64,000 bases of DNA. It comes from Marinilactibacillus piezotolerans (GTDB lineage: Bacteria > Bacillota > Bacilli > Lactobacillales > Carnobacteriaceae_A). A program made the position numbers and the translations under genes. The stretch is taken from assembly GCF_900169305.1 (NCBI RefSeq), contig NZ_FWDP01000003.1:351014-415013 (forward strand), read 5' to 3'. Below are positions 15,246-60,135 of this stretch, one piece after another (position 1 is the first letter of the stretch; each line of letters begins with the position of its first letter). The notes beneath the pieces were generated by a model that was given only the letters and a program-made list of their open reading frames with translations, did not search any database and was not told the DNA's origin.

Positions 15246-15758
15246 TTACTTAGAAATTATAGAAGCAGGAAGCTGTTTCTCGATTTCGATTAATACCTGT
15301 TCCAAAGAAGAGGTGTTAGGTACAATGAAATCAGCTGCTGCCGTATAGAGATTCTTTCGCTCATGGTACAATTGGTATAGTCTTTCTATTCCTGACTTCA
15401 AAAGTGGACGATGTTCCGTCTGAATATCTTGAACAATCTGTTCAATTGGCCGGTCGATCAAAATAATCCACCCTGTTTTTCTCAATGCCTGAATATTGAG
15501 TTGATTTAAAACAACACCGCCGCCACAGGAGATAACTGTTCGTTGCTGCTGAGCGGCGAGATTTTGGCATGCAGCTGCTTCAATTTCTCTAAAATGCTCT
15601 TCGCTAACCGCAAAGAGTTCGGGGATTGTCTGCTTTTCTGTTTTTTCTATATAATGGTCGATGTCTATAAAAGACATTGAGAGCCTTGCGCTCAGCTGTT
15701 TGCCGATAGTCGTTTTGCCGCTGCCTGTCATCCCGATCAATACAATGTTGGATTTCAT
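15246..15758 (-). CDS. aroK: Shikimate kinase
   Basis: A 170-residue NMP-kinase-fold enzyme that phosphorylates shikimate at O3. Walker A GMTGSGKTTIG is at residues 9-19, the shikimate-binding 'DIDHYIE' follows, and 'VISCGGGVVLN' is the conserved GGG substrate loop. The 4-bp overlap with aroE indicates translational coupling. Confidence 0.96.
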   Translation of the reverse strand: MKSNIVLIGMTGSGKTTIGKQLSARLSMSFIDIDHYIEKTEKQTIPELFAVSEEHFREIEAAACQNLAAQQQRTVISCGGGVVLNQLNIQALRKTGWIILIDRPIEQIVQDIQTEHRPLLKSGIERLYQLYHERKNLYTAAADFIVPNTSSLEQVLIEIEKQLPASIISK

Positions 15759-16558
15759 CTTCTCTCACCAAATTCCTGAATCAATTCTTCAATGATGGAA
15801 GAATCGATTTCAATGTTTTCCCAAATCTCTACCGCTCTGACAGCTTGCCCGATCAGCATATCCAACCCGTTTGCCGTTTCTTTCGCATGCTTTCTTCCTA
15901 GCGATAAAAAAGTTGTTTCAAAAGGATTGTAGACTAAATCGATCAAAATACCGAACTGTTGAATCATCCCTTCAGAAACGGGCGAATCGGCTGTGTTTGG
16001 ATGCATGCCGACAGGGGTAGTGTTAATCAGAAAATCTCCTTGCAGCGTCGAAGCCGAAGTGTAATTGGTATAGGTGGTTTTGTCTGTAGATTCGAAACGT
16101 TCAGGAGATCTGGAAACAATGTTAATGTGCTGAATACCCTGATGCAGCAAATAAGCAATCACCATTTTTGCAGCTCCGCCGGTCCCCAATACAACTGCTG
16201 TTTTTCCAGCTGGAGACCATTTTCGACGTTCAAAAATCAATCCAAATCCCGCATAGTCCGTATTATATCCAATTAAATGACCAGCCTGATTTTTTATCGT
16301 ATTTACTGCCTGAAGCTGTCTTGCCAAGGGATCTAGTTCATCCAAAAATGGCAGAACCGTTTCCTTGTAAGGTATGGTTACATTCACCCCGCTGATGGTC
16401 AATGTACGAATGCTTGCTACCGCTTCAGACAACTCAGCCGGCGGGAAAGCAAATGTCTTGTATGAAGCTTGTAATCCAGTCTTTTGATAGATAGATCGAT
16501 GCAGAAGAGGAGATAAACTATGAGACAAATGCTCTCCAAATAAACCGTAAAAATGCAT
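15755..16558 (-). CDS. aroE: Shikimate dehydrogenase
   Basis: A 267-residue NADPH-dependent enzyme reducing 3-dehydroshikimate. 'GEHLSHSLSPLLHR' is the shikimate-binding loop, 'GVNVTIPYKE' holds the catalytic Lys, 'GYNTDYAGF' the catalytic Asp, and 'VVLGTGGAAKMVIAYL' the NADP-binding glycine loop. AAGGAG precedes the ATG. It is the first gene of the leftward aro operon, which is divergent from the rightward aro operon across a 1.1-kb regulatory region. Confidence 0.96.
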   Translation of the reverse strand: MHFYGLFGEHLSHSLSPLLHRSIYQKTGLQASYKTFAFPPAELSEAVASIRTLTISGVNVTIPYKETVLPFLDELDPLARQLQAVNTIKNQAGHLIGYNTDYAGFGLIFERRKWSPAGKTAVVLGTGGAAKMVIAYLLHQGIQHINIVSRSPERFESTDKTTYTNYTSASTLQGDFLINTTPVGMHPNTADSPVSEGMIQQFGILIDLVYNPFETTFLSLGRKHAKETANGLDMLIGQAVRAVEIWENIEIDSSIIEELIQEFGERR

Positions 16559-16593
16559 GAGCGACTCCTTTCATTCAAGTAAGTTTGGTTTGA

Positions 16594-16622
16594 AGTATAG
16601 ACAAAAGAAAAATGAATTACAA
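16594..16622 (-). promoter_or_regulatory. Promoter of the leftward aroE-aroK-aroQ-tyrA operon
   Basis: On the minus strand TTGTAA (16622-16617) and TATACT (16599-16594) are separated by 17 bases, about 35 bases before the aroE start. No attenuator or T-box is apparent on this side. Confidence 0.55.
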
Positions 16623-16759
16623 ATAGAATCTAAAAATTTATGAGAATTCATTAAATTTATTTGGTCTGAAAAAAGTGAGTAAATCCTATTGTTGAGCGGT
16701 TTTTTGAATGATGAAAACAAAAGATTAAAATAAAATTTGAAAAAATTTTGTGATTTCTG

Positions 16760-16788
16760 TTGACATTGAATTTTTTACTTGCTAGTAT
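16760..16788 (+). promoter_or_regulatory. Promoter of the aromatic leader / rightward aro operon
   Basis: Perfect -35 TTGACA at 16760-16765 and TAGTAT at 16783-16788 with a 17-base spacer. It lies 50 bases before the leader peptide ATG. No comparable promoter was seen in the 600 bases between the attenuator terminator and the first structural gene. Confidence 0.7.
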
Positions 16789-16839
16789 TGGGGCACAGTT
16801 GAACAACAGCTGATACCAATCAATTGAGGAGTTAGGAAC

Positions 16840-16941
16840 ATGATCAACCAACATCACATTCATAAAGCATCGACCTCACAATTGAATCGTTATTACTTTA
16901 GCTTCTTTAGGATCAAATCTATGGAGGCTAGAGAGCTTTAA
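16840..16941 (+). CDS. Aromatic amino-acid leader peptide (33 aa)
   Basis: A 33-codon frame behind a GAGGAG ribosome binding site. Residues 18-23 are Tyr-Tyr-Phe-Ser-Phe-Phe, five aromatic codons in six, encoded by TAT TAC TTT AGC TTC TTT at 16891-16908. It is immediately followed by overlapping RNA pairings and an intrinsic terminator, and precedes genes for Phe/Tyr synthesis. The peptide itself probably has no function; translation through the aromatic codons would sense charged tRNA-Phe and tRNA-Tyr. It has no similarity I recognise to a known leader peptide. Confidence 0.75.
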   Translation: MINQHHIHKASTSQLNRYYFSFFRIKSMEAREL

Positions 16942-17073
16942 GCTGCTGACAACAGCGTCCCATAGATTTCACAGAAATCGAATGGGGCGCACAAGTAAAA
17001 TACAACATTTTATGAGTGAATATAAACCAGAGCCGCATTCGATCTTCTAAAGAAGACAGAATGCGGCTTTTTG
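16915..17073 (+). promoter_or_regulatory. Ribosome-mediated attenuator of the aro operon
   Basis: Four pairings compete. 1:2 is AAATCTATGG (16915-16924) with CCATAGATTT (16960-16969). 2:3 is GCGTCCCAT (16955-16963) with ATGGGGCGC (16982-16990). 3:4 is ATCGAATG (16977-16984) with CATTCGAT (17036-17043), extended by GGC/GCC. 4:5 is the terminator, AGCCGCATTC (17031-17040) with GAATGCGGCT (17059-17068), followed by T5. Stalling at the aromatic codons leaves segment 1 free, so 1:2 and then 3:4 form and transcription proceeds. A ribosome reaching the stop at 16939 masks segment 1, so 2:3 and the terminator form. The logic is inferred from the pairings. Confidence 0.75.
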
Positions 17074-17260
17074 CTGCGTCCGTTTGAACAAAGTGAATTA
17101 CGGACGCAGTACTAGGCGAGCGCCAGCGAGCGTAGTCACATCTCCGCAAGGGACCGTTCGAGCGAAGCGAGTTACGGGCAAAGTACTAGGCGAGCGCTAG
17201 TGAGCGTAGTTACCCGTTCCGCCAGGAGGTCCGTTTGAACGCAGTAAATGACGAGAAAAG
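17074..17260. repeat. Two and a half copies of a 60-bp hairpin-rich repeat
   Basis: Copy 1 spans 17080-17139 and copy 2 17154-17213, with the start of a third at 17231. Both share a CCGTTYGARC start and a long conserved block (GTACTAGGCGAGCG...GAGCGTAGT). Copy 1 sits in a perfect 9-bp stem, CTGCGTCCG/CGGACGCAG (17074-17109). The GC-rich, palindromic, non-coding character suggests a dispersed intergenic repeat family rather than a gene. It lies just downstream of the attenuator terminator. Confidence 0.7.
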
Positions 17261-17298
17261 AATGAACCAGGTAATCACAAAAAGTTAAGCGCAATGTT

Positions 17299-17636
17299 TT
17301 ACGAAGTCAGAGAAAACAGAGGTTGAGTACAGAGAATAAGAGCGGAATTCTACGAAGTCAGAAGAAAAGAGAATGAGTAAGGAGAATAAGAGCAGAATTC
17401 TACGAAGTCAGAAAAGAAAAGGAAGTGAGTAAGAAGAATAAGAGCAGAGTTCTACGAAGTCAGAGAAGAAAAGAGAATGAGTAAGGAGAATAAGAGTAAA
17501 ATTCTACGAAGTCAGAGAAGAAAAGAGAATGAGTAAGGAGAATAAGAGCAAAATTCTATGAAGTCAGAGAAGAAAAGAGAGTGAGTAAGGAGAATAAGAG
17601 CAAAATTCTGCGAACTCAGAGGAAAAAGAAATTGAG
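17299..17636. repeat. Tandem repeat, period 50-52 bp, seven copies
   Basis: The block ACGAAGTCAG (with small variants) recurs at 17301, 17352, 17402, 17454, 17506, 17558 and 17610, that is at spacings of 51, 50, 52, 52, 52 and 52. Each unit also contains a GAGTAAGGAGAATAAGAG segment. The unit is purine-rich on the plus strand. The period is not a multiple of three and stops interrupt all frames, so it is not coding. There are no unique spacers, so it is not CRISPR. It lies in what should be the 5' untranslated region of the rightward aro operon. Confidence 0.85.
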
Positions 17637-17690
17637 TACCTAAAATTAGCGTGAAATATTCAGGCACTAAAAATAGTGGAGGTAGAAAAC

Positions 17691-18227
17691 ATGATTATCC
17701 ATACATTAGGTCCAAAAAGCACCGACAGTTATGCGGCTGCCAAATCGCTGCTTCAATCAGAGGAGGATGATATCGTTGAGTATCCGTCTTTTGACAGCCT
17801 GCTTCATAATCTAGAACAGTTAAAAGGTCAGCATGTACTATTTCCGGTAGCCTTTAAAAGCGCGCGACGAGATTATGGTTGGAAAGAATTCAATTATGAC
17901 TATTGGGATAAAATCGAACTGGTCAATGTGTTTCAAAGGAAGACGAAGCCAATGCTGCTTATCAAAAACCAGCAGCACACAGAAAACACGGCGATGATTC
18001 ATCCAGCCACCACTATTTTTCTGAAAAAGTATCTAGATACACAGTCCGAGCAAACGGTAGTCCGTTTTACAGACAGCAAGTACAAAGCCTGGAAAGCTTT
18101 CTGCAAAAAAAGTATGAAATATACGATTATCAGTGAAGATGTGTATGAAAAAGAGAAACAGCCTGAACACACAGTAGAAGAACGCTATGAGCCAGTTATG
18201 GTCTGGTGTCTTTACAAAATAAACTAA
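17691..18227 (+). CDS. Prephenate dehydratase-like / BacA-like protein
   Basis: A 178-residue soluble protein. The N-terminal 'HTLGPKSTDSYAAAKSLL' matches the start of the PDT fold shared by prephenate dehydratase and the bacilysin enzyme BacA (prephenate decarboxylase). The Thr-Arg-Phe motif of classical PheA dehydratases is not seen, and there is no C-terminal ACT domain, so in length and layout it is closer to BacA. No other prephenate dehydratase lies in the window, and the gene heads an operon that ends in chorismate mutase, so a dehydratase role in Phe synthesis is attractive but unproven. The ATG at 17691 is preferred over a GTG 15 bases upstream because GGAGGT lies between them. Confidence 0.7.
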   Translation: MIIHTLGPKSTDSYAAAKSLLQSEEDDIVEYPSFDSLLHNLEQLKGQHVLFPVAFKSARRDYGWKEFNYDYWDKIELVNVFQRKTKPMLLIKNQQHTENTAMIHPATTIFLKKYLDTQSEQTVVRFTDSKYKAWKAFCKKSMKYTIISEDVYEKEKQPEHTVEERYEPVMVWCLYKIN

Positions 18228-18251: not shown

Positions 18252-19292
18252 ATGATTATTGTATTAAAACAAGGGGTAACTGCAGAAGCCGTTAAAGAAA
18301 TCACAGGTCGCTTAGAAACCAGAGGTGTAGCTGTCAGTCATTTTTCAGATATTAAAAGAGATTTTCTAGGATTGATCGGAGACACCAGCGGAATCGATAC
18401 CCACCAGCTGCAAGCACTGAAAGAGGTCGAACAAATTGTACGAGTAGAGGAACCATACAAACGTGCCAATAGAAAATTTCATCCAGAAAACTCTGTCATT
18501 CAAATAGGAAACGAAACAATTGGGGGAAGCCAGTTGGGTATCATAGCTGGTCCGTGTTCAGTTGAAAGCGAAGAACAGATTGTGCGTGTGGCCAAACAAA
18601 TCAAAGCTGCCGGCGCAAACTTCCTGCGAGGCGGAGCATTCAAGCCGAGAACCTCTCCTTACAGCTTCCAAGGATTGGAATTAGAAGGACTGCGCATGCT
18701 GCAAACAGCTAAACAGGAAACCGGCATGCCGATCGTGACAGAGTTGATGTCGACAAAATGGATCGATGAATTTGTGGATTCCGTAGATGTTATTCAAATT
18801 GGTGCCCGCAACATGCAGAACTTTGATTTGCTGAAAGAAGTTGGAAAGACCAATACACCAGTCTTGTTAAAACGCGGACTGTCTGCAACCTACAAAGAAT
18901 GGTTGATGTCAGCAGAATACATTATGTCAGAAGGAAATGAGAACGTCATTTTATGCGAACGCGGTATTCGCACATTCGAAACGGAAACACGAAATACGTT
19001 GGATGTTCAAGCGGTGCCGGTTATTAAAAAACTTTCGCATCTGCCAATTATTATTGATCCAAGTCATGCTGGCGGAATGGCGTACATGGTCGAAGCGGGT
19101 GCCAAAGCAGGCATCGCAGCAGGCGCTGACGGACTGATGATCGAAGTCCATAACGATCCTGCAAATGCATGGAGTGATGGAGAACAATGCCTGACACCGG
19201 ATGAATTTGCAGCGGTTATGGAAAAAGCCCGCAAACTGGCTGAAGTGGAAGACCGTTCGATCCAAGCAGCAGCAACTGTATTAGCAAAATAA
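18252..19292 (+). CDS. aroF: 3-deoxy-7-phosphoheptulonate synthase (DAHP synthase, type I-beta)
   Basis: A 346-residue enzyme condensing phosphoenolpyruvate and erythrose 4-phosphate, the entry step of the shikimate pathway. Residues 1-70 form the ferredoxin-like regulatory domain known from Thermotoga-type DAHPS that binds Tyr/Phe. The TIM barrel follows with 'GIIAGPCSVES' (catalytic Cys), 'FLRGGAFKPRTSPYSFQG' (PEP site), 'LLKRGLSAT' and 'IIDPSHAGG' (metal His). The regulatory domain suggests feedback inhibition in addition to attenuation. It lies 24 bp after the PDT-like gene. Confidence 0.96.
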   Translation: MIIVLKQGVTAEAVKEITGRLETRGVAVSHFSDIKRDFLGLIGDTSGIDTHQLQALKEVEQIVRVEEPYKRANRKFHPENSVIQIGNETIGGSQLGIIAGPCSVESEEQIVRVAKQIKAAGANFLRGGAFKPRTSPYSFQGLELEGLRMLQTAKQETGMPIVTELMSTKWIDEFVDSVDVIQIGARNMQNFDLLKEVGKTNTPVLLKRGLSATYKEWLMSAEYIMSEGNENVILCERGIRTFETETRNTLDVQAVPVIKKLSHLPIIIDPSHAGGMAYMVEAGAKAGIAAGADGLMIEVHNDPANAWSDGEQCLTPDEFAAVMEKARKLAEVEDRSIQAAATVLAK

Positions 19293-19311: not shown

Positions 19312-20400
19312 ATGCCTGAACTGACAGTAGAAATTCCAGAAAGCAAAACAAGCTATCCGCTGAAAATAGAAAAAGGATTGCTGAATCATATAGGGTCAGA
19401 ACTCTTGAAAGTGTTCAAAGGAACAAAAATAGCCGTAATAACAGACGAAACGGTGCATCAACACTATGGGAATAAAGCAGTGGAGGAGCTGGAGTCTGCA
19501 GGATACGCTGTTCAGTGCATCGTGTTGCCGCCTGGAGAACAAACGAAAGCCTTTCAGACCATGCCGGACATTTATAGCCGATTGATCGAATTTGGGCTAA
19601 CCAGAAGTGACTTGATCGTTGCACTCGGTGGCGGTGTGATTGGAGATATCGCCGGATTTGCAGCAGCTTCTTACTTGAGAGGCATCTCATTCATCCAAGT
19701 GCCCACTACATTGCTGGCACAAGTCGACAGCAGTGTCGGCGGGAAAGTGGGCGTTGATCTGCCCGAAGGAAAAAATCTGGTCGGTGCTTTTTATCATCCG
19801 AAACTTGTCTTAATCGACCCGCTGGTACTGGAAACTTTGACGGACGAAGCCTTCGCGGATGGTATGGCAGAAGTCATCAAGTACGGCTGCATAAAAGACC
19901 GAGAACTGTTTGATCGTCTGATGGACCTTTCTTCTAGAGAACAAGTTATGCAGCAGATTGAATGGGTTATCGAAACCTGTTGTACCCTTAAAAAACAAGT
20001 CGTTCAAACCGATGAAAAGGATACTGGTGAACGAATGCTGCTGAACTTTGGGCATACTTTAGGCCATGCAATCGAAGCGTATTATCACTATGAAGATTAT
20101 TCCCATGGTCAAGGGGTGGCGATTGGGATGGTTGAGCTGACTAGAATCGCAGAAGCTGAAAAGAAAACAGAAGCCGGCACGACAGAAGCGCTGATCTTCC
20201 TATTAAAACAACATCAGCTGCCTACAGAATTGAAAAAACCGGAAGACTATTCAGAAATACTGCCGTATATAAAAAAAGACAAGAAAAATTTAGAGGGTCA
20301 TTTGACGATCATTATTCTAGACAGTATTGGCAAAGCTAGAAGAGTGCATAGCGATCTAACCTTTTTCAAAAGCTTAACGACAGGAGGTACATCATCTTGA
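19312..20400 (+). CDS. aroB: 3-dehydroquinate synthase
   Basis: A 362-residue NAD- and metal-dependent enzyme that cyclises DAHP to 3-dehydroquinate. The NAD-binding 'LGGGVIGDIAGFAAASYLRG' and 'PTTLLAQVDSSVGGKVGVD' blocks are intact, as are the metal ligands in 'GMAEVIKYG' and the His residues of 'LLNFGHTLGHAIEA' and 'SHGQGVAIGM'. AGGAGG precedes the ATG. The stop overlaps the TTG start of aroA, indicating coupled translation. Confidence 0.97.
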   Translation: MPELTVEIPESKTSYPLKIEKGLLNHIGSELLKVFKGTKIAVITDETVHQHYGNKAVEELESAGYAVQCIVLPPGEQTKAFQTMPDIYSRLIEFGLTRSDLIVALGGGVIGDIAGFAAASYLRGISFIQVPTTLLAQVDSSVGGKVGVDLPEGKNLVGAFYHPKLVLIDPLVLETLTDEAFADGMAEVIKYGCIKDRELFDRLMDLSSREQVMQQIEWVIETCCTLKKQVVQTDEKDTGERMLLNFGHTLGHAIEAYYHYEDYSHGQGVAIGMVELTRIAEAEKKTEAGTTEALIFLLKQHQLPTELKKPEDYSEILPYIKKDKKNLEGHLTIIILDSIGKARRVHSDLTFFKSLTTGGTSS

Positions 20401-21644
20401 CGAATCTCAAACTCATACCAAAAACATTGAGTGGAACAGTCACTGTTCCTCCTTCTAAAAGTATGGCCCACCGAGCAGTGATTTGTGCCAGTTTGGCGGA
20501 AGGGCGCAGTGTTATCCATAATATTCAGTTATCTGAAGACATTCAAGCAACGATTGAAGGGATGCAGGCCTTTGGAGCCGTGATTTTACATGAAGAAAAT
20601 ACTTTAACAATTGACGGTATAGGGTCTGCTAGCGCTAGACGCAGCCATACAATTGACTGTAATGAATCAGGTTCAACACTGCGCTTTCTCGTACCGGTTG
20701 CTACTTTATTCGCTGGAGAAACCAGGTTTACTGGACGAGGGAAATTAGGACAGCGGCCAATGCATCCGTATCAAGAAATTTTTGCACAACAGTCAGTAAG
20801 CTACGAACCAGCAGATTCCAAACAACTGAATCTGACCATAGAAGGAAAACTGAAGCCGGGTACTTATAATATGCGGGGAGATATCAGCTCTCAGTTTATA
20901 ACAGGGATGCTGCTGACGTTGCCGCTGCTGGAAGGCGATTCGGTTCTAAACATTACGACACATTTAGAGTCAAAAGGATACATCGACTTAACGTTGTCTG
21001 TTCTGGAAACATTTGGGATCTCCATCATCAACGAGAACGATACAACCTTTAAAATAGCCGGCAATCAAAGCTATCAATCTCAACAGTATACAGTTGAAGG
21101 TGACTACTCCCAAGCGGCCTTCTGGTTAACGGCTGAGCAGTTGGGGAATCCGGTCATAGTGGATGGCTTGAAAGCAGACTCTCTGCAGGGAGACCAGGAA
21201 ATCATTCAAATTCTAAAGCAGCTTCAAGAGCCGAAGCAGCACGAGCGGGTCATTGATGGTGCACAAGTACCGGATATCATTCCGATTGCGGCTCTAGCGG
21301 CAGCATTAAGTGAAGGAAAGACGTCTTTTACAAACTTGGAGAGGTTAAAAATCAAAGAAAGCGATCGGTTGATGGCGACCCAGAAAGAACTGGCCGCGTT
21401 AGGAGCTCAGATTATAGCAGAAGGGAATACATTGCACATTACAGGACAGCCTTCGCTGAAAGGTGGGCAGGAAGTTTGGAGTCACAAAGATCACCGGATG
21501 GCTATGATGCTTGCGGTTGCTTCGACTGTCTGCAGAGAACCGATCTACATCAAAGATACAGAGTGTGTTCAAAAATCATATCCCGATTTCTGGGAAGTTT
21601 TTCAAAAAGCAGGAGGAGAAGTACATGAGTGGAATATGGGGTAA
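20397..21644 (+). CDS. aroA: 3-phosphoshikimate 1-carboxyvinyltransferase (EPSP synthase)
   Basis: A 415-residue enzyme adding enolpyruvate to shikimate 3-phosphate. The N-terminal 'VPPSKSMAHRAVICASLA' is the shikimate-phosphate-binding loop, 'CNESGSTLRFLVPVA' the PEP loop, and 'KESDRLMATQKEL' and 'KDHRMAMMLAVAS' the C-terminal domain signatures. In the PEP loop the residue after 'ESG' is Ser rather than the Gly-Thr of class I enzymes, which is typical of class II Gram-positive forms. The start is TTG at 20397 behind AGGAGG, overlapping the aroB stop. Confidence 0.96.
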   Translation: MTNLKLIPKTLSGTVTVPPSKSMAHRAVICASLAEGRSVIHNIQLSEDIQATIEGMQAFGAVILHEENTLTIDGIGSASARRSHTIDCNESGSTLRFLVPVATLFAGETRFTGRGKLGQRPMHPYQEIFAQQSVSYEPADSKQLNLTIEGKLKPGTYNMRGDISSQFITGMLLTLPLLEGDSVLNITTHLESKGYIDLTLSVLETFGISIINENDTTFKIAGNQSYQSQQYTVEGDYSQAAFWLTAEQLGNPVIVDGLKADSLQGDQEIIQILKQLQEPKQHERVIDGAQVPDIIPIAALAAALSEGKTSFTNLERLKIKESDRLMATQKELAALGAQIIAEGNTLHITGQPSLKGGQEVWSHKDHRMAMMLAVASTVCREPIYIKDTECVQKSYPDFWEVFQKAGGEVHEWNMG

Positions 21645-22719
21645 AAACCTTCAAATCTCTATTTTCGGAGAGTCGCATGGGATTGCAATTGGCGTAACCA
21701 TTAACGGATTACCGCCGGGGTTAACAGTAGATATGGAACGGGTATTATTTGAAATGGCCAGAAGAGCACCTGGCAGAAACGAGCTGACAACACCACGTAA
21801 AGAAAAGGATCAGCCGGAGATTCTCAGTGGATTTTTAGATGGGAAGACGACAGGTGCACCGCTGACCGCTATCATCTGGAATACAAATACACGGTCTAAA
21901 GATTACAGTCTTCTGAAGAATGTGATGCGGCCAGGACAAGCGGATTACCCAGGACGTGTACGTTATAAAGGACATAATGATCACCGAGGCAGCGGGCACT
22001 TCTCAGGCAGAATCACAGCTCCTCTGGTATTTGCTGGTGCAATCTGCAAACAGTGGCTGGAACAGAAAGGAGTCACGATTGGATCCCATATCAGTTCAAT
22101 CGGAACAATAGAAGACGAAGACTTCTCAGAACAGGGATCGGTCAGCTTAGAACAAGTAGAAGCCTTCAAACATCAGCAATTGCCGCTTTTTGATGCGTCA
22201 AAAGAAGCAGAAATGAAAGAGCTGATCGTGGAAGCAAAAGAAGATGGCGATTCAGTCGGCGGCGTAGTAGAGACATTTGTTTTAGGATTAGATGCTGGAT
22301 ACGGAAATCCGTTTTTCGATTCTGTAGAATCCCAACTGGCACACTTAGTTTTTGCAGTGCCAGCTATCAAAGGGATTGAATTCGGAACTGGATTTGAAAT
22401 TACAAAAATGCGCGGATCAGAAGCGAATGATGAGTACTACTACGATGAACAAGGAGACATCAAAACGCGGTCCAACAATAATGGAGGAATCATCGGCGGA
22501 ATCACATATGGTATGCCGGTCGTCTTCCGGGCAGCCGTTAAACCACCTGCTTCTATTAAGAAAAAACAGCAAACCATCAATGTAGAAGAAGGGAAAGCGG
22601 CAGAACTGGAAGTGGAAGGAAGACACGATCCTTGTATTGTTCCCCGAGTACTGCCAGTCTTAGAAGCTGTTACAGCACTTGGATTGATGGATCTGATGAT
22701 TGGAGGACACACCGTATGA
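21625..22719 (+). CDS. aroC: Chorismate synthase
   Basis: A 364-residue FMN-dependent lyase forming chorismate from EPSP. Signature segments 'GESHGIAIGVTINGLPPGL', 'RGSGHFSGRITAPLV' and a C-terminal 'RHDPCIVPRVLPVLEAV' are intact, with the His residues used in catalysis. An upstream in-frame ATG would add 38 residues, but AGGAGGAG sits just before the ATG at 21625 and family members start at this position. Its TGA overlaps the chorismate mutase ATG as ATGA. Confidence 0.96.
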   Translation: MSGIWGKNLQISIFGESHGIAIGVTINGLPPGLTVDMERVLFEMARRAPGRNELTTPRKEKDQPEILSGFLDGKTTGAPLTAIIWNTNTRSKDYSLLKNVMRPGQADYPGRVRYKGHNDHRGSGHFSGRITAPLVFAGAICKQWLEQKGVTIGSHISSIGTIEDEDFSEQGSVSLEQVEAFKHQQLPLFDASKEAEMKELIVEAKEDGDSVGGVVETFVLGLDAGYGNPFFDSVESQLAHLVFAVPAIKGIEFGTGFEITKMRGSEANDEYYYDEQGDIKTRSNNNGGIIGGITYGMPVVFRAAVKPPASIKKKQQTINVEEGKAAELEVEGRHDPCIVPRVLPVLEAVTALGLMDLMIGGHTV

Positions 22720-22985
22720 GTAAATTAGAAGAGTATCGTCAAGAAATTGATGCGATCGACCAAGAGTTGACACGGCTTTTTGAAGCTCGACTCAAAACCG
22801 TTTTGAAAGTCGGCGAATATAAAAAGCAGCATGATTTGCCTGTACTGGATGCCAGTCGTGAGCAGAAAGTCATCGCAAAAAATGTAAACCGTCTGGAAGA
22901 CAAGCGATTTGAAGAAGAACTGACCAAGTTCTTTCAGTCTATGATGAACATCACGAAAGAAACGCAGCAGAAGATGATGGAATAA
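22716..22985 (+). CDS. Chorismate mutase (AroQ class)
   Basis: An 89-residue all-helical chorismate mutase: 'RQEIDAIDQELTRLFEARL' supplies the first active-site helix with Arg and the Asp-Glu region, followed by 'VGEYKKQHDLPVLDASREQKVI' with the catalytic Lys and Arg, and a C-terminal helix. It converts chorismate to prephenate, feeding tyrA (in the divergent operon) and probably the PDT-like gene at the start of this operon. It is monofunctional, not fused to PDT or DAHP synthase. GGAGG lies within the end of aroC. Confidence 0.93.
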   Translation: MSKLEEYRQEIDAIDQELTRLFEARLKTVLKVGEYKKQHDLPVLDASREQKVIAKNVNRLEDKRFEEELTKFFQSMMNITKETQQKMME

Positions 22986-58544: not shown

Positions 58545-58800
58545 TAATAAGTGAACGTTAAGCGAGAAGCAGTAAGGGGACTAAAGTTCAAGAGAGTCAG
58601 TGGCTGGTGAGAACTGATCCTTTATAACCTGAATCCATCCCGCAAGTAGACAGTGAAACGACTAATCGTGTAAATTGTCTCGGTAGAGCCCGTTAATACT
58701 CATAGAGAGCAGGGAAGTGTTTCTTCCTTGAATCAGGGTGGCACCGCGAAAAGCAGTCTTTCGTCCCTTCGTAACAGGAGGGGTGAGAGACTGCTTTTTT
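58545..58800 (+). promoter_or_regulatory. T-box leader (serine) upstream of serS
   Basis: The T-box core AGGGTGGCACCGCG is at 58735-58748. The bases UGGC in its bulge would pair with the GCCA end of uncharged tRNA-Ser (discriminator G). In the 3' side of stem I, GAATCCATCC contains a UCC serine specifier codon (58634-58636). A strong terminator, AGCAGTCT (58751-58758) with AGACTGCT (58788-58795) and TTTTTT, lies just after the core. Uncharged tRNA-Ser would stabilise the antiterminator and allow serS expression. Confidence 0.92.
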
Positions 58801-58854: not shown

Positions 58855-60135
58855 ATGTTAGATATCAAACTTATCCGCACTGAATTTGATCAAGTGAAAG
58901 AAAAACTGGTAACACGAGGCGTAGATCCTAATGAACTGACTGCACTAAAAGAATTGGATGAAAAAAGAAGAGCGCTAATCCAAGAATCAGAACGCTTGAA
59001 GAAAACGCGTAATGAAGTTTCAGATGAGATTGCAACGAAAAAGAGAAACAAAGAAAACGCTGATGAAGCCATTGAAGCAATGAAAAAAGTCGGCGCAGAC
59101 ATTAAAAGGATCGACCAGGAATTAGAAGAAGTTGAAACGAAATTCCAAGATATCGCTGACGGTCTGCCAAATCTTCCGCATGAATCTCTGCCGGTCGGAG
59201 AAGATGAAGAGTCAAATCTGGAAGTGCGCAATTGGGGCAATGGAAATAATGACCAGTATGACTTTGAACCGAAACCGCACTGGGAAATCGGCGCAGATTT
59301 AGATATTCTTGACTTTGAAAGAGGCGCTAAAGTGGCGAAAAGCCGTTTCCTTTATTACAAGGGCTTAGGGGCGCGCTTAGAACGTGCTTTATACAATTTT
59401 ATGCTGGATGTACACACTGAAGAACATGGATATTATGAAATGATCCCGCCGTATCTGGTAAATGAAGATTCCTTATATGGAACAGGACAATTCCCTAAAT
59501 TCAAGGAAGATGTTTTCCAAATTCAAGATACTGCTTTAACCTTGATCCCGACAGCGGAAGTACCATTAACTAATTACTACCGAGATGAAATCTTAGAAGA
59601 AGCAGACCTTCCGAAATATTTCACGGCACTATCTCCGTCATTCCGTTCAGAAGCTGGAAGCGCTGGTCGTGACACTCGCGGGTTAATCAGGTTGCACCAA
59701 TTCAATAAAGTAGAAATGATCAAGTTTGCCAAACCTGAAGAATCATATGATGAACTAGAAAAAATGACAGCAAATGCCGAAGCAATTCTGCAGAAGCTGG
59801 AACTTCCTTATAGAGTAGTTTTATTGTCTACAGGAGATACTGGGTTTGCGGCAGCTAAAACATATGATTTAGAAGTATGGATTCCTGCACAAAACACATA
59901 CAGAGAAATCAGCTCATGCTCAAATACCGAAGCATTCCAGGCAAGAAGGGCTAAGATACGTTATAGAAGAGAAGAAGATGGGAAAATCGATTTCGTTCAT
60001 ACACTGAATGGTTCAGGATTGGCGATCGGACGTACTGTGGCAGCGATTTTGGAAAATTATCAGCAAGCAGACGGAACTGTAAAAGTACCGGAAGTACTGG
60101 TTCCTTATATGGGCGGCGTTACAGAAATTGGATAG
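58855..60135 (+). CDS. serS: Seryl-tRNA synthetase
   Basis: A 426-residue class II synthetase with an N-terminal antiparallel coiled-coil tRNA-binding arm (about residues 30-100, Lys/Glu-rich) and the motif 1-3 core: '[20 protein letters not shown]', '[29 protein letters not shown]' and '[20 protein letters not shown]'. Regulated by the upstream T-box. Short spacing after the terminator hairpin fits T-box layouts. Confidence 0.97.

Follow-up and report, generated by a model that had tools for sequence, protein, structure and literature searches.

An aro operon of Marinilactibacillus piezotolerans, preceded by a short reading frame rich in Phe and Tyr codons and by a terminator, raises the question of how this pathway is controlled in the lactic-acid bacteria's group, which is usually thought to rely on T-boxes for its amino-acid genes. 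The operon lies in a stretch of 64,000 nucleotides (the window; positions 351,014 to 415,013 of contig NZ_FWDP01000003.1) for which a first-pass annotation, made from the sequence alone, had proposed a Phe/Tyr leader-peptide attenuator. Our analysis leads to the same core reading: the leader is very probably a trp-type ribosome-mediated attenuator, predicted to end transcription ahead of the aro operon except when ribosomes stall at the Phe/Tyr codons of the leader. If this is true, classical attenuation governs both aromatic synthesis and aromatic uptake in the lactic-acid bacteria's group.

A Phe/Tyr reading frame precedes the aro operon

The leader occupies positions 16760–17072 of the window on the + strand. 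Its putative promoter (TTGACA-17-TAGTAT with TG, 16760–16788) has 10/12 matches and is the best of three promoter-like sites found when both strands of 16560–17700 were scanned, a count at the chance level (2.2 in shuffles, s.d. 1.5); TTGAC...TTGCTAGTATTG stands upstream of all five leaders of the genus. A ribosome binding site (GAGGAG, 16826–16831) lies 8 nt 5′ of the ATG at 16840, which opens a frame of 33 codons plus UAA (16840–16941) that translates to MINQHHIHKASTSQLNRYYFSFFRIKSMEAREL* (asterisk, stop). The leader, its frame and the peptide motif are kept in 5/5 Marinilactibacillus genomes. At 16891–16908 the frame carries Tyr-Tyr-Phe-Ser-Phe-Phe (YYFSFF), five Phe/Tyr codons within a row of six, and Phe/Tyr codons are found in the same register in loci of the Rfam family RF02863. 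A short frame that has its own start codon and ribosome binding site, and a cluster of end-product codons within it, are both marks of an attenuator.

Genes of the same pathway (aroF and a chorismate mutase gene) lie downstream, which is a further such mark. The first gene of the operon (17691–18227, + strand) encodes a 178-residue protein with a weakly prephenate-dehydratase-like start (Pfam PDT, 15.2 bits, under the cut-off of 25.2, with a sub-threshold LHH match) and no NCBIfam match. It is followed by aroF (18252–19292, +), assigned by family search to a DAHP synthase with an FXD domain, and by the rest of the operon (19312–22985, +), which comprises aroB, aroA and aroC, named from their translations, and the chorismate mutase gene, whose product has a Pfam CM_2 match. 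On the other side of the leader, family search identified aroE on the − strand (15755–16558), and behind it lie aroK, aroQ and tyrA, named from translations alone.

Right behind the terminator, an inverted, repeated stretch at 17074–17260 (CGTTCGAA...TTACGG, CTAGGCGAGCG), with short matches elsewhere in the window's genome and in its relatives, looks like an interspersed repeat. A tandem array of period 52 and 6.9 copies (17286–17638) takes up a large part of the 600 nt that separate the terminator from the first gene; in Carnobacterium jeotgali the two lie only some tens of bases apart.

A scan for T-boxes (RF00230, gathering threshold of 93 bits) gave no match in the leader region, and a T-box identity was rejected; a known riboswitch identity was rejected as well, there being no Rfam riboswitch match at the leader. 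The same scan located a T-box at 58549–58771, ahead of a gene (58855–60135) that encodes seryl-tRNA synthetase judging from its translation, and the organism therefore also uses T-boxes.

Six segments form a chain of exclusive pairings

Six segments of the leader can form five pairings. Segment 1 (16896–16905) lies inside the control codons, spanning TAC TTT AGC TTC, and pairs with 16924–16933 over 10/10 pairs (1:2). The control codons sit in the 5′ arm of this first stem (16896–16905 within 16891–16908), which is the placement expected of an attenuator. Segment 2 (16915–16933) can also pair through 16915–16924 with 16960–16969 of segment 3 (2:3), a hairpin that holds the stop codon (16939–16941) in its loop. 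Segment 3 (16955–16969) can pair through 16955–16963 with 16982–16990 of segment 4 (3:4), and segment 4 (16977–16990) through 16977–16984 with 17036–17043 of segment 5, which forms the antiterminator (4:5). Segment 5 (17029–17043) provides at 17029–17040 the 5′ arm of the terminator (5:6), and segment 6 (17059–17072) provides its 3′ arm (17059–17070) and the U run (17068–17072).

Neighbouring pairings are mutually exclusive, which sets 1:2, 3:4 and the terminator 5:6 against 2:3 and the antiterminator 4:5. The mutual exclusion of antiterminator and intrinsic terminator is likewise typical of attenuators. Everything that the first-pass annotation listed, from promoter and ribosome binding site through the 33-codon YYFSFF frame and the exclusive pairings to the terminator, is present at the positions given there; the four pairings that it had named, terminator included, are fully paired, its run of five T corresponds to 17068–17072, and the stop codon does lie within a hairpin loop. 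A pattern scanner listed no terminator at the leader, despite 17029–17040:17059–17070, probably because an inner stem lengthens the terminator loop beyond the scanner's limit of 8.

Folding predicts a classical switch with an added relay

We computed partition functions for the RNA 3′ of a masked region, the polymerase being placed just past segment 5. The mask that represents the ribosome reaches 14 nt downstream, counted from the first nucleotide of the codon in the A site, a footprint figure that comes from E. coli work. With the A site at 16891, 16894 or 16897, 2:3 reaches a probability of 0.92–0.93 and 4:5 a probability of 0.96; at 16903 the values are 0.70 and 0.92, and at the last Phe codon (16906) the antiterminator is not predicted. 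Without a ribosome, 3:4 stands at 0.72 and 4:5 at 0.07, and with the ribosome at the stop codon these values become 0.98 and 0.00. Folding predicts both outcomes that had been put forward in the first-pass annotation, namely antitermination when the ribosome stalls and termination when it is at the stop codon. Once segment 6 is transcribed, no other state is as stable as the terminator, with or without a ribosome, and therefore the switch must be kinetic.

The predicted course of events is as follows. If charged tRNA for Phe or Tyr runs short, a ribosome would stall at 16891–16905 and cover segment 1, on which 2:3 would form, 3:4 would be blocked, the antiterminator 4:5 would form and the polymerase would read through. 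When Phe and Tyr are plentiful, the ribosome would reach the stop codon and cover segment 2, so that 3:4 could form, leaving segment 5 free for the terminator 5:6. Without translation, 1:2 would protect segment 2, and termination would again result.

The sense of the modelled switch is classical, with one added relay step (3:4, 4:5) before the terminator. The first-pass annotation had described it as an inversion of the trp logic, which does not hold: the stalled ribosome is predicted to block 1:2 and free 2:3, as in trp. The inversion arose because the segments had been counted from 16915, omitting segment 1, and the missed pairing 16896–16905:16924–16933 restores the classical sense.

Enterobacterial trp, pheA and pheST are leader-peptide attenuators, with which the leader in the window shares a short frame, tandem control codons in segment 1, the protector 1:2, an antiterminator, an intrinsic terminator and pathway genes downstream. 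The window differs from them in having five chained pairings rather than three, with 2:3 acting through the relay 3:4 and 4:5.

Conservation among close relatives

A search for DAHP synthase at 1e-60 was positive in 14/27 genomes of the family. A Phe/Tyr leader was found upstream in five Marinilactibacillus genomes, in five of the genus of Alkalibacterium pelagium and A. sp. AK22, in one of genus g8 and in C. jeotgali; the leader pattern was unmatched at the other positive loci (those of G012, G018 and G014, and the second copy in each of G008 and G011), of which some lie at contig ends. In Alkalibacterium-type leaders the stop codon falls in or after segment 2. At one and the same place the pairing partners are AAAUCUAUAG and CUAUAGAUUU in C. 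jeotgali, against AAAUCUAUGG and CCAUAGAUUU in Marinilactibacillus. A DNA search for a second copy in the genome of the window returned only this leader and one short repeat match.

Across the 12 aligned compact leaders the five pairings hold 92 to 100% of cells paired (1:2, 120/120; 2:3, 117/120; 3:4, 94/102; 4:5, 93/96; 5:6, 136/141). Covariation beyond shuffles is seen in the terminator only, where 11 double-change cells are reached by 0/500 shuffles. The one double change in 2:3 is reached by 42/500 shuffles and that in 3:4 by 219/500, and 1:2 and 4:5 show no double changes, solely wobbles or lost pairs. The compensatory changes by which the first-pass annotation would have its stems judged are thus seen among these leaders for the terminator, and not beyond shuffles for 2:3, 3:4 and 4:5. 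A strong helix of similar score, 16902–16912:17045–17055, was rejected as functional, with 84/131 cells paired and 3 double-change cells in the 12 leaders.

The leader in the window scores 19.8 bits against RF02863, below the gathering threshold of 61, and a search of the window's genome with this family gave no further copy; the leaders of C. jeotgali (L139) and genus g8 (L042) are also under the threshold. It is probably a relative of RF02863 that works like it, filed outside the membership of that family. Both have the peptide motif (QLN in 63/90 RF02863 loci, then xYFS[YF][FY]R) and the same pairing order, whereas the leader in the window is compact, has a longer frame and lacks the hairpin A:A′ described below.

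Probable relatives in the published record

RNA elements that resemble this leader are already in print. One study (PMC4448216) describes two gbs elements of S. agalactiae, of 195 and 270 nt, which precede two paralogous ABC-transporter operons and for which RNA-seq shows two transcripts, one short and one long, that share a start site; the elements are conserved in Lactobacillales, and that of gbs2033 also occurs before E. faecium aroFBC-tyrA. According to another study (PMC5593968), sRNA_2410 of E. faecium is a 195-nt RNA with two transcripts on Northern blots. Judging from gene context, gbs2033 is probably RF02863 (sRNA_2410) and gbs1262 is probably RF04312 (the trpB motif).

A Phe/Tyr leader-peptide reading of the sRNA_2410/gbs2033 elements was not found in the open-licence literature. 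The first-pass annotation had presented the locus as its best candidate for an undescribed system, and this stands in part: the RNA of probable relatives has been published, and the leader-peptide reading is absent from the passages of those papers that were available. Two other papers describe leader-peptide attenuation in Firmicutes, one of them for His (PMC2965389) and the other for branched-chain amino acids (PMC6123439); these leaders resemble that in the window as ribosome-mediated attenuation in Gram-positives and differ in amino acids and genes. uORFC-13-1 of Acholeplasma (PMC8632094) is a Phe-coding upstream frame with a terminator before aroF, in other organisms.

Codon conservation in the wider family

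At E ≤ 0.1, RF02863 has matches in 227/395 genomes of Lactobacillales (99 above the cut-off) and in 0/14 controls; at 0.01, matches occur in 34/398 genomes sampled from the class, of which five do not belong to the order. We read 90 loci, namely the 30 best matches and 60 chosen from the listed matches for family spread, counting one (L084) with a corrected register. All 90 have an in-frame ATG, and 82/90 have a Shine-Dalgarno match of at least 4 nt, with the start picked for best match.

Codons −1, 0, +2 and +3 specify Phe or Tyr in 90/90 of these loci. Over five positions, aromatic residues (F, Y or W) fill 428/450 places in frame 0 versus 41/450 and 60/450 in the other frames. TTT, TTC, TAT and TAC interchange at the aromatic positions; at +2, for example, TAT occurs 51 times, TAC 30, TTC 7 and TTT 2, and at −1 TAC occurs 81 times, TTC 6, TAT 2 and TTT 1.

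This pattern bears on whether the RNA might instead be a riboswitch with free aromatic amino acids or a precursor as its ligand, the short frame being incidental. New riboswitch families of this kind were proposed for gbs2033/gbs1262 by the authors of PMC4448216, and the trpB motif was classed as a strong riboswitch candidate in PMC11109978, whose authors also allow for a classic attenuator. UUUAGC and GGCUAAAG are indeed very highly conserved. However, the conservation is codon-like, with Phe and Tyr codons swapping, four positions aromatic throughout and the pattern confined to one frame. Even L084, which has MKNTNQAFHFVGTFFHYYYGYYR with the motif HYYYGYYR, keeps the frame while substituting Gly for Ser. 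The conserved bases are largely accounted for by codons and alternative pairings, and a sister element, presented below, has Trp codons before Trp-transporter genes. We regard a riboswitch as quite unlikely.

TnaC and SecM are nascent-chain arrest peptides, and the peptide YFSYFR might itself stall the ribosome on a small molecule, rather than through hungry codons. Ser and Arg are each kept in 89/90 loci, and the aromatic block often stands at the frame end, as such a peptide might require. The Ser and Arg codons, however, fall within the pairing of segment 1 with a segment B (1:B) and may be kept for that pairing, Phe and Tyr interchange at every aromatic position, and the peptide end is variable (R*, RYGL, RSCL or RIKSMEAREL), as is the Ser itself in L084. 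Arrest by the nascent chain is on these grounds very unlikely, and stalling at Phe/Tyr codons remains our preferred reading. If true, it provides a codon-level mechanism for RNA elements widespread in Lactobacillales that have hitherto been sRNA or riboswitch candidates without a proven ligand.

Genes downstream were grouped by BLAST clusters, with one member named per cluster and two of the first; L103, at a contig end, had no readable downstream gene, and the protein of L098 was searched by its first 404 residues. Among the 89 readable loci the gene behind the RNA encodes a TrpX-like transporter binding protein in 65, and it is aroE in 19, aroF in 2 and aroC in 1; one of the remaining two encodes prephenate dehydratase and the other a family-3 (amino-acid-type) ABC binding protein. 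A same-strand aro, pheA or TrpX-like gene follows in 88/89.

A stop-codon hairpin and a covarying antiterminator

For the RNA alignment, 88 sequences, L103 and L083 being left out, were reduced to 63 on the basis of shared words, and the ends of L098, L116 and L126 were set by hand. A terminator was found in 88/89 loci, L083 being the exception. The 63 sequences form the chain 1:B, A:A′, A′:B, B:C, C:D, D:E (antiterminator) and E:F (terminator). In this wider family the frame mostly ends just after segment 1, and the hairpin A:A′ then follows. A (GUUUGUAUUC) lies directly behind the stop codon and recurs in B (GUUUGUAUC), and therefore A′ (GGAUACAAAC) can pair with A or B; in L118, L129 and L138, A, A′ and B are all altered together. 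This extra hairpin just behind the stop, and the Firmicute hosts, set the wider family apart from the enterobacterial leaders.

Double changes occur in 6/8 pairs of the antiterminator D:E (61 cells, against a shuffle mean of 19 and maximum of 29, and 4 to 8 for slid versions) and in 11/11 pairs of the terminator E:F (135 cells). They are also seen in 9/12 pairs of A:A′ (22 cells), 4/9 pairs of A′:B (7 cells), 2/5 of C:D-a, 2/7 of 1:B and 1/6 of B:C-a. For each of these seven, the number of double-change cells was reached by 0/500 shuffles, kinship being uncorrected; B:C-b, 1b:B and C:D-b showed no double change in the 63 sequences. When C:D-a was slid by +3 it gave 13 double-change cells versus 8 for the real pairing, though merely 42% of cells were then paired. 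Antiterminator and terminator both covary in the wider family.

In masked folding, the mean probability of D:E is 0.53 with the ribosome stalled at codon 0, 0.24 at the stop codon and 0.13 without a ribosome, and A′:B at the stop reaches a mean of 0.87. The D:E value at the stall exceeds that at the stop by more than 0.1 in 35/63 sequences and falls below it in 3/63, with no difference above 0.1 in 25/63; compared with no ribosome it is higher in 40/63 and lower in 1/63. These results suggest that a stalled ribosome would mask segment 1 and let A:A′ form, leaving B free for B:C, after which D:E would form and permit read-through. A ribosome at the stop would mask A, so that A′:B and then C:D and E:F would form, resulting in termination. 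Without translation, 1:B and A:A′ would form, then C:D and E:F, and termination would again follow. In the window's genus, which lacks A:A′, the frame runs through segment 2, and the terminating ribosome would cover segment 2 itself. The comparable leaders of many other lactic-acid bacteria probably operate by the same principle.

A trans-acting small RNA that leaves the gene behind it uncontrolled, in keeping with the Rfam type of RF02863 ('Gene; sRNA') and with the 195-nt RNA and two transcripts of E. faecium (PMC5593968), is hardly credible, considering the same-strand genes at 88/89 loci and an antiterminator that covaries along with the terminator, and a short RNA is to be expected in any case, because the terminated leader is itself one. 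Besides its control in cis, the RNA may still have a trans role.

A Trp form of the leader before TrpX genes

The TrpX family model NF041285 was applied to 23 genomes, namely that of the window and 22 picked for having RF02863 matches, and listed 20 loci that pass the cut-off and 27 that fall short of it. In 7/20 of the passing loci the leader at the same place contains two Trp codons (L228, L229, L230, L232, L234, L243 and L244); that of L228 reads MKQLNNSWQNWRR, and QLNNSWQNWRR exemplifies the end of this form. A T-box was found at three others (L231, L233 and L235), and 10/20 had neither Trp leader nor T-box by the patterns used, one of these (L251) being a second gene directly behind that of L232. 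Below the cut-off, 9/10 of the fetched loci (27 listed) carry a Phe/Tyr leader, a rate biased by the choice of genomes; L247, 2 bits below the cut-off, has none.

The Rfam trpB motif (RF04312) matched 4/16 loci scanned (L228, L232, L243 and L244). It has the same layout as the leader in the window, but its control codons specify Trp (SWQNWRR*) and TrpX genes follow; it also differs in that segment B stands directly opposite the terminator arm, with no C:D relay. GUUGUAU...AUACAAC...GUAUCUAUG is laid out alike in Trp and Phe/Tyr forms, and QLN precedes the Trp codons in 3/7 leaders (L228, L243 and L244), as it does the Phe/Tyr codons in 63/90. These likenesses in sequence suggest common descent of the two forms. 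Folding of the seven Trp leaders had a mixed outcome: in L229, L234 and L244 (the last at one of two stall positions) the stall turns B to its downstream pairing, in L232 the stall differs from the stop state only, L230 gives an ambiguous result, and L228 and L243 do not switch.

One of these Trp loci (L243) belongs to the window's own genome, outside the window (contig C2, about 36.8–38.2 kb), where the leader LNMNWQSWRRSL* and a match to the trpB motif lie upstream of a TrpX transporter gene.

We consider it fairly probable that sRNA_2410/gbs2033 and the trpB motif/gbs1262 belong to a single kind of leader-peptide attenuator, whose target changes between Phe/Tyr and Trp when the codons are swapped. 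The same account includes A:A′ as a stop-codon sensor, in which A is masked and A′ captures the antiterminator segment, and has the window's genus losing this hairpin and extending the frame through segment 2 instead. If this reading holds, the wide family would account for two RNA families that have so far been poorly understood (RF02863 and RF04312). TrpX-like transporters behind the Phe/Tyr form would then be predicted to serve Phe or Tyr, not Trp, and the TrpX paralogues below the cut-off, annotated as transporters of Trp, may have been assigned the wrong substrate.

Other leaders upstream of aroF

Two aroF regions of Salinicoccus (Staphylococcaceae) exceed the RF02863 cut-off (L161, 73.6; L178, 66.0) and show the wider-family layout before aroF (L161, 3781–3946; L178, 3785–3972), with the leader MLLTRQQQHNRFYFSYF*. 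A scan of 80 aroF loci, from which two with less than 300 nt of upstream sequence were left out, found a short frame with at least 6 aromatic residues in 12, about 180–390 nt upstream, at 43/78 loci (L143–L215, mostly Clostridia), compared with 4/78 for an opposite-strand control. These frames, exemplified by MKNLIRKGITREYYFYFSNWGFYFSAGYSSC in L152, apparently represent a different, widespread aroF leader peptide.
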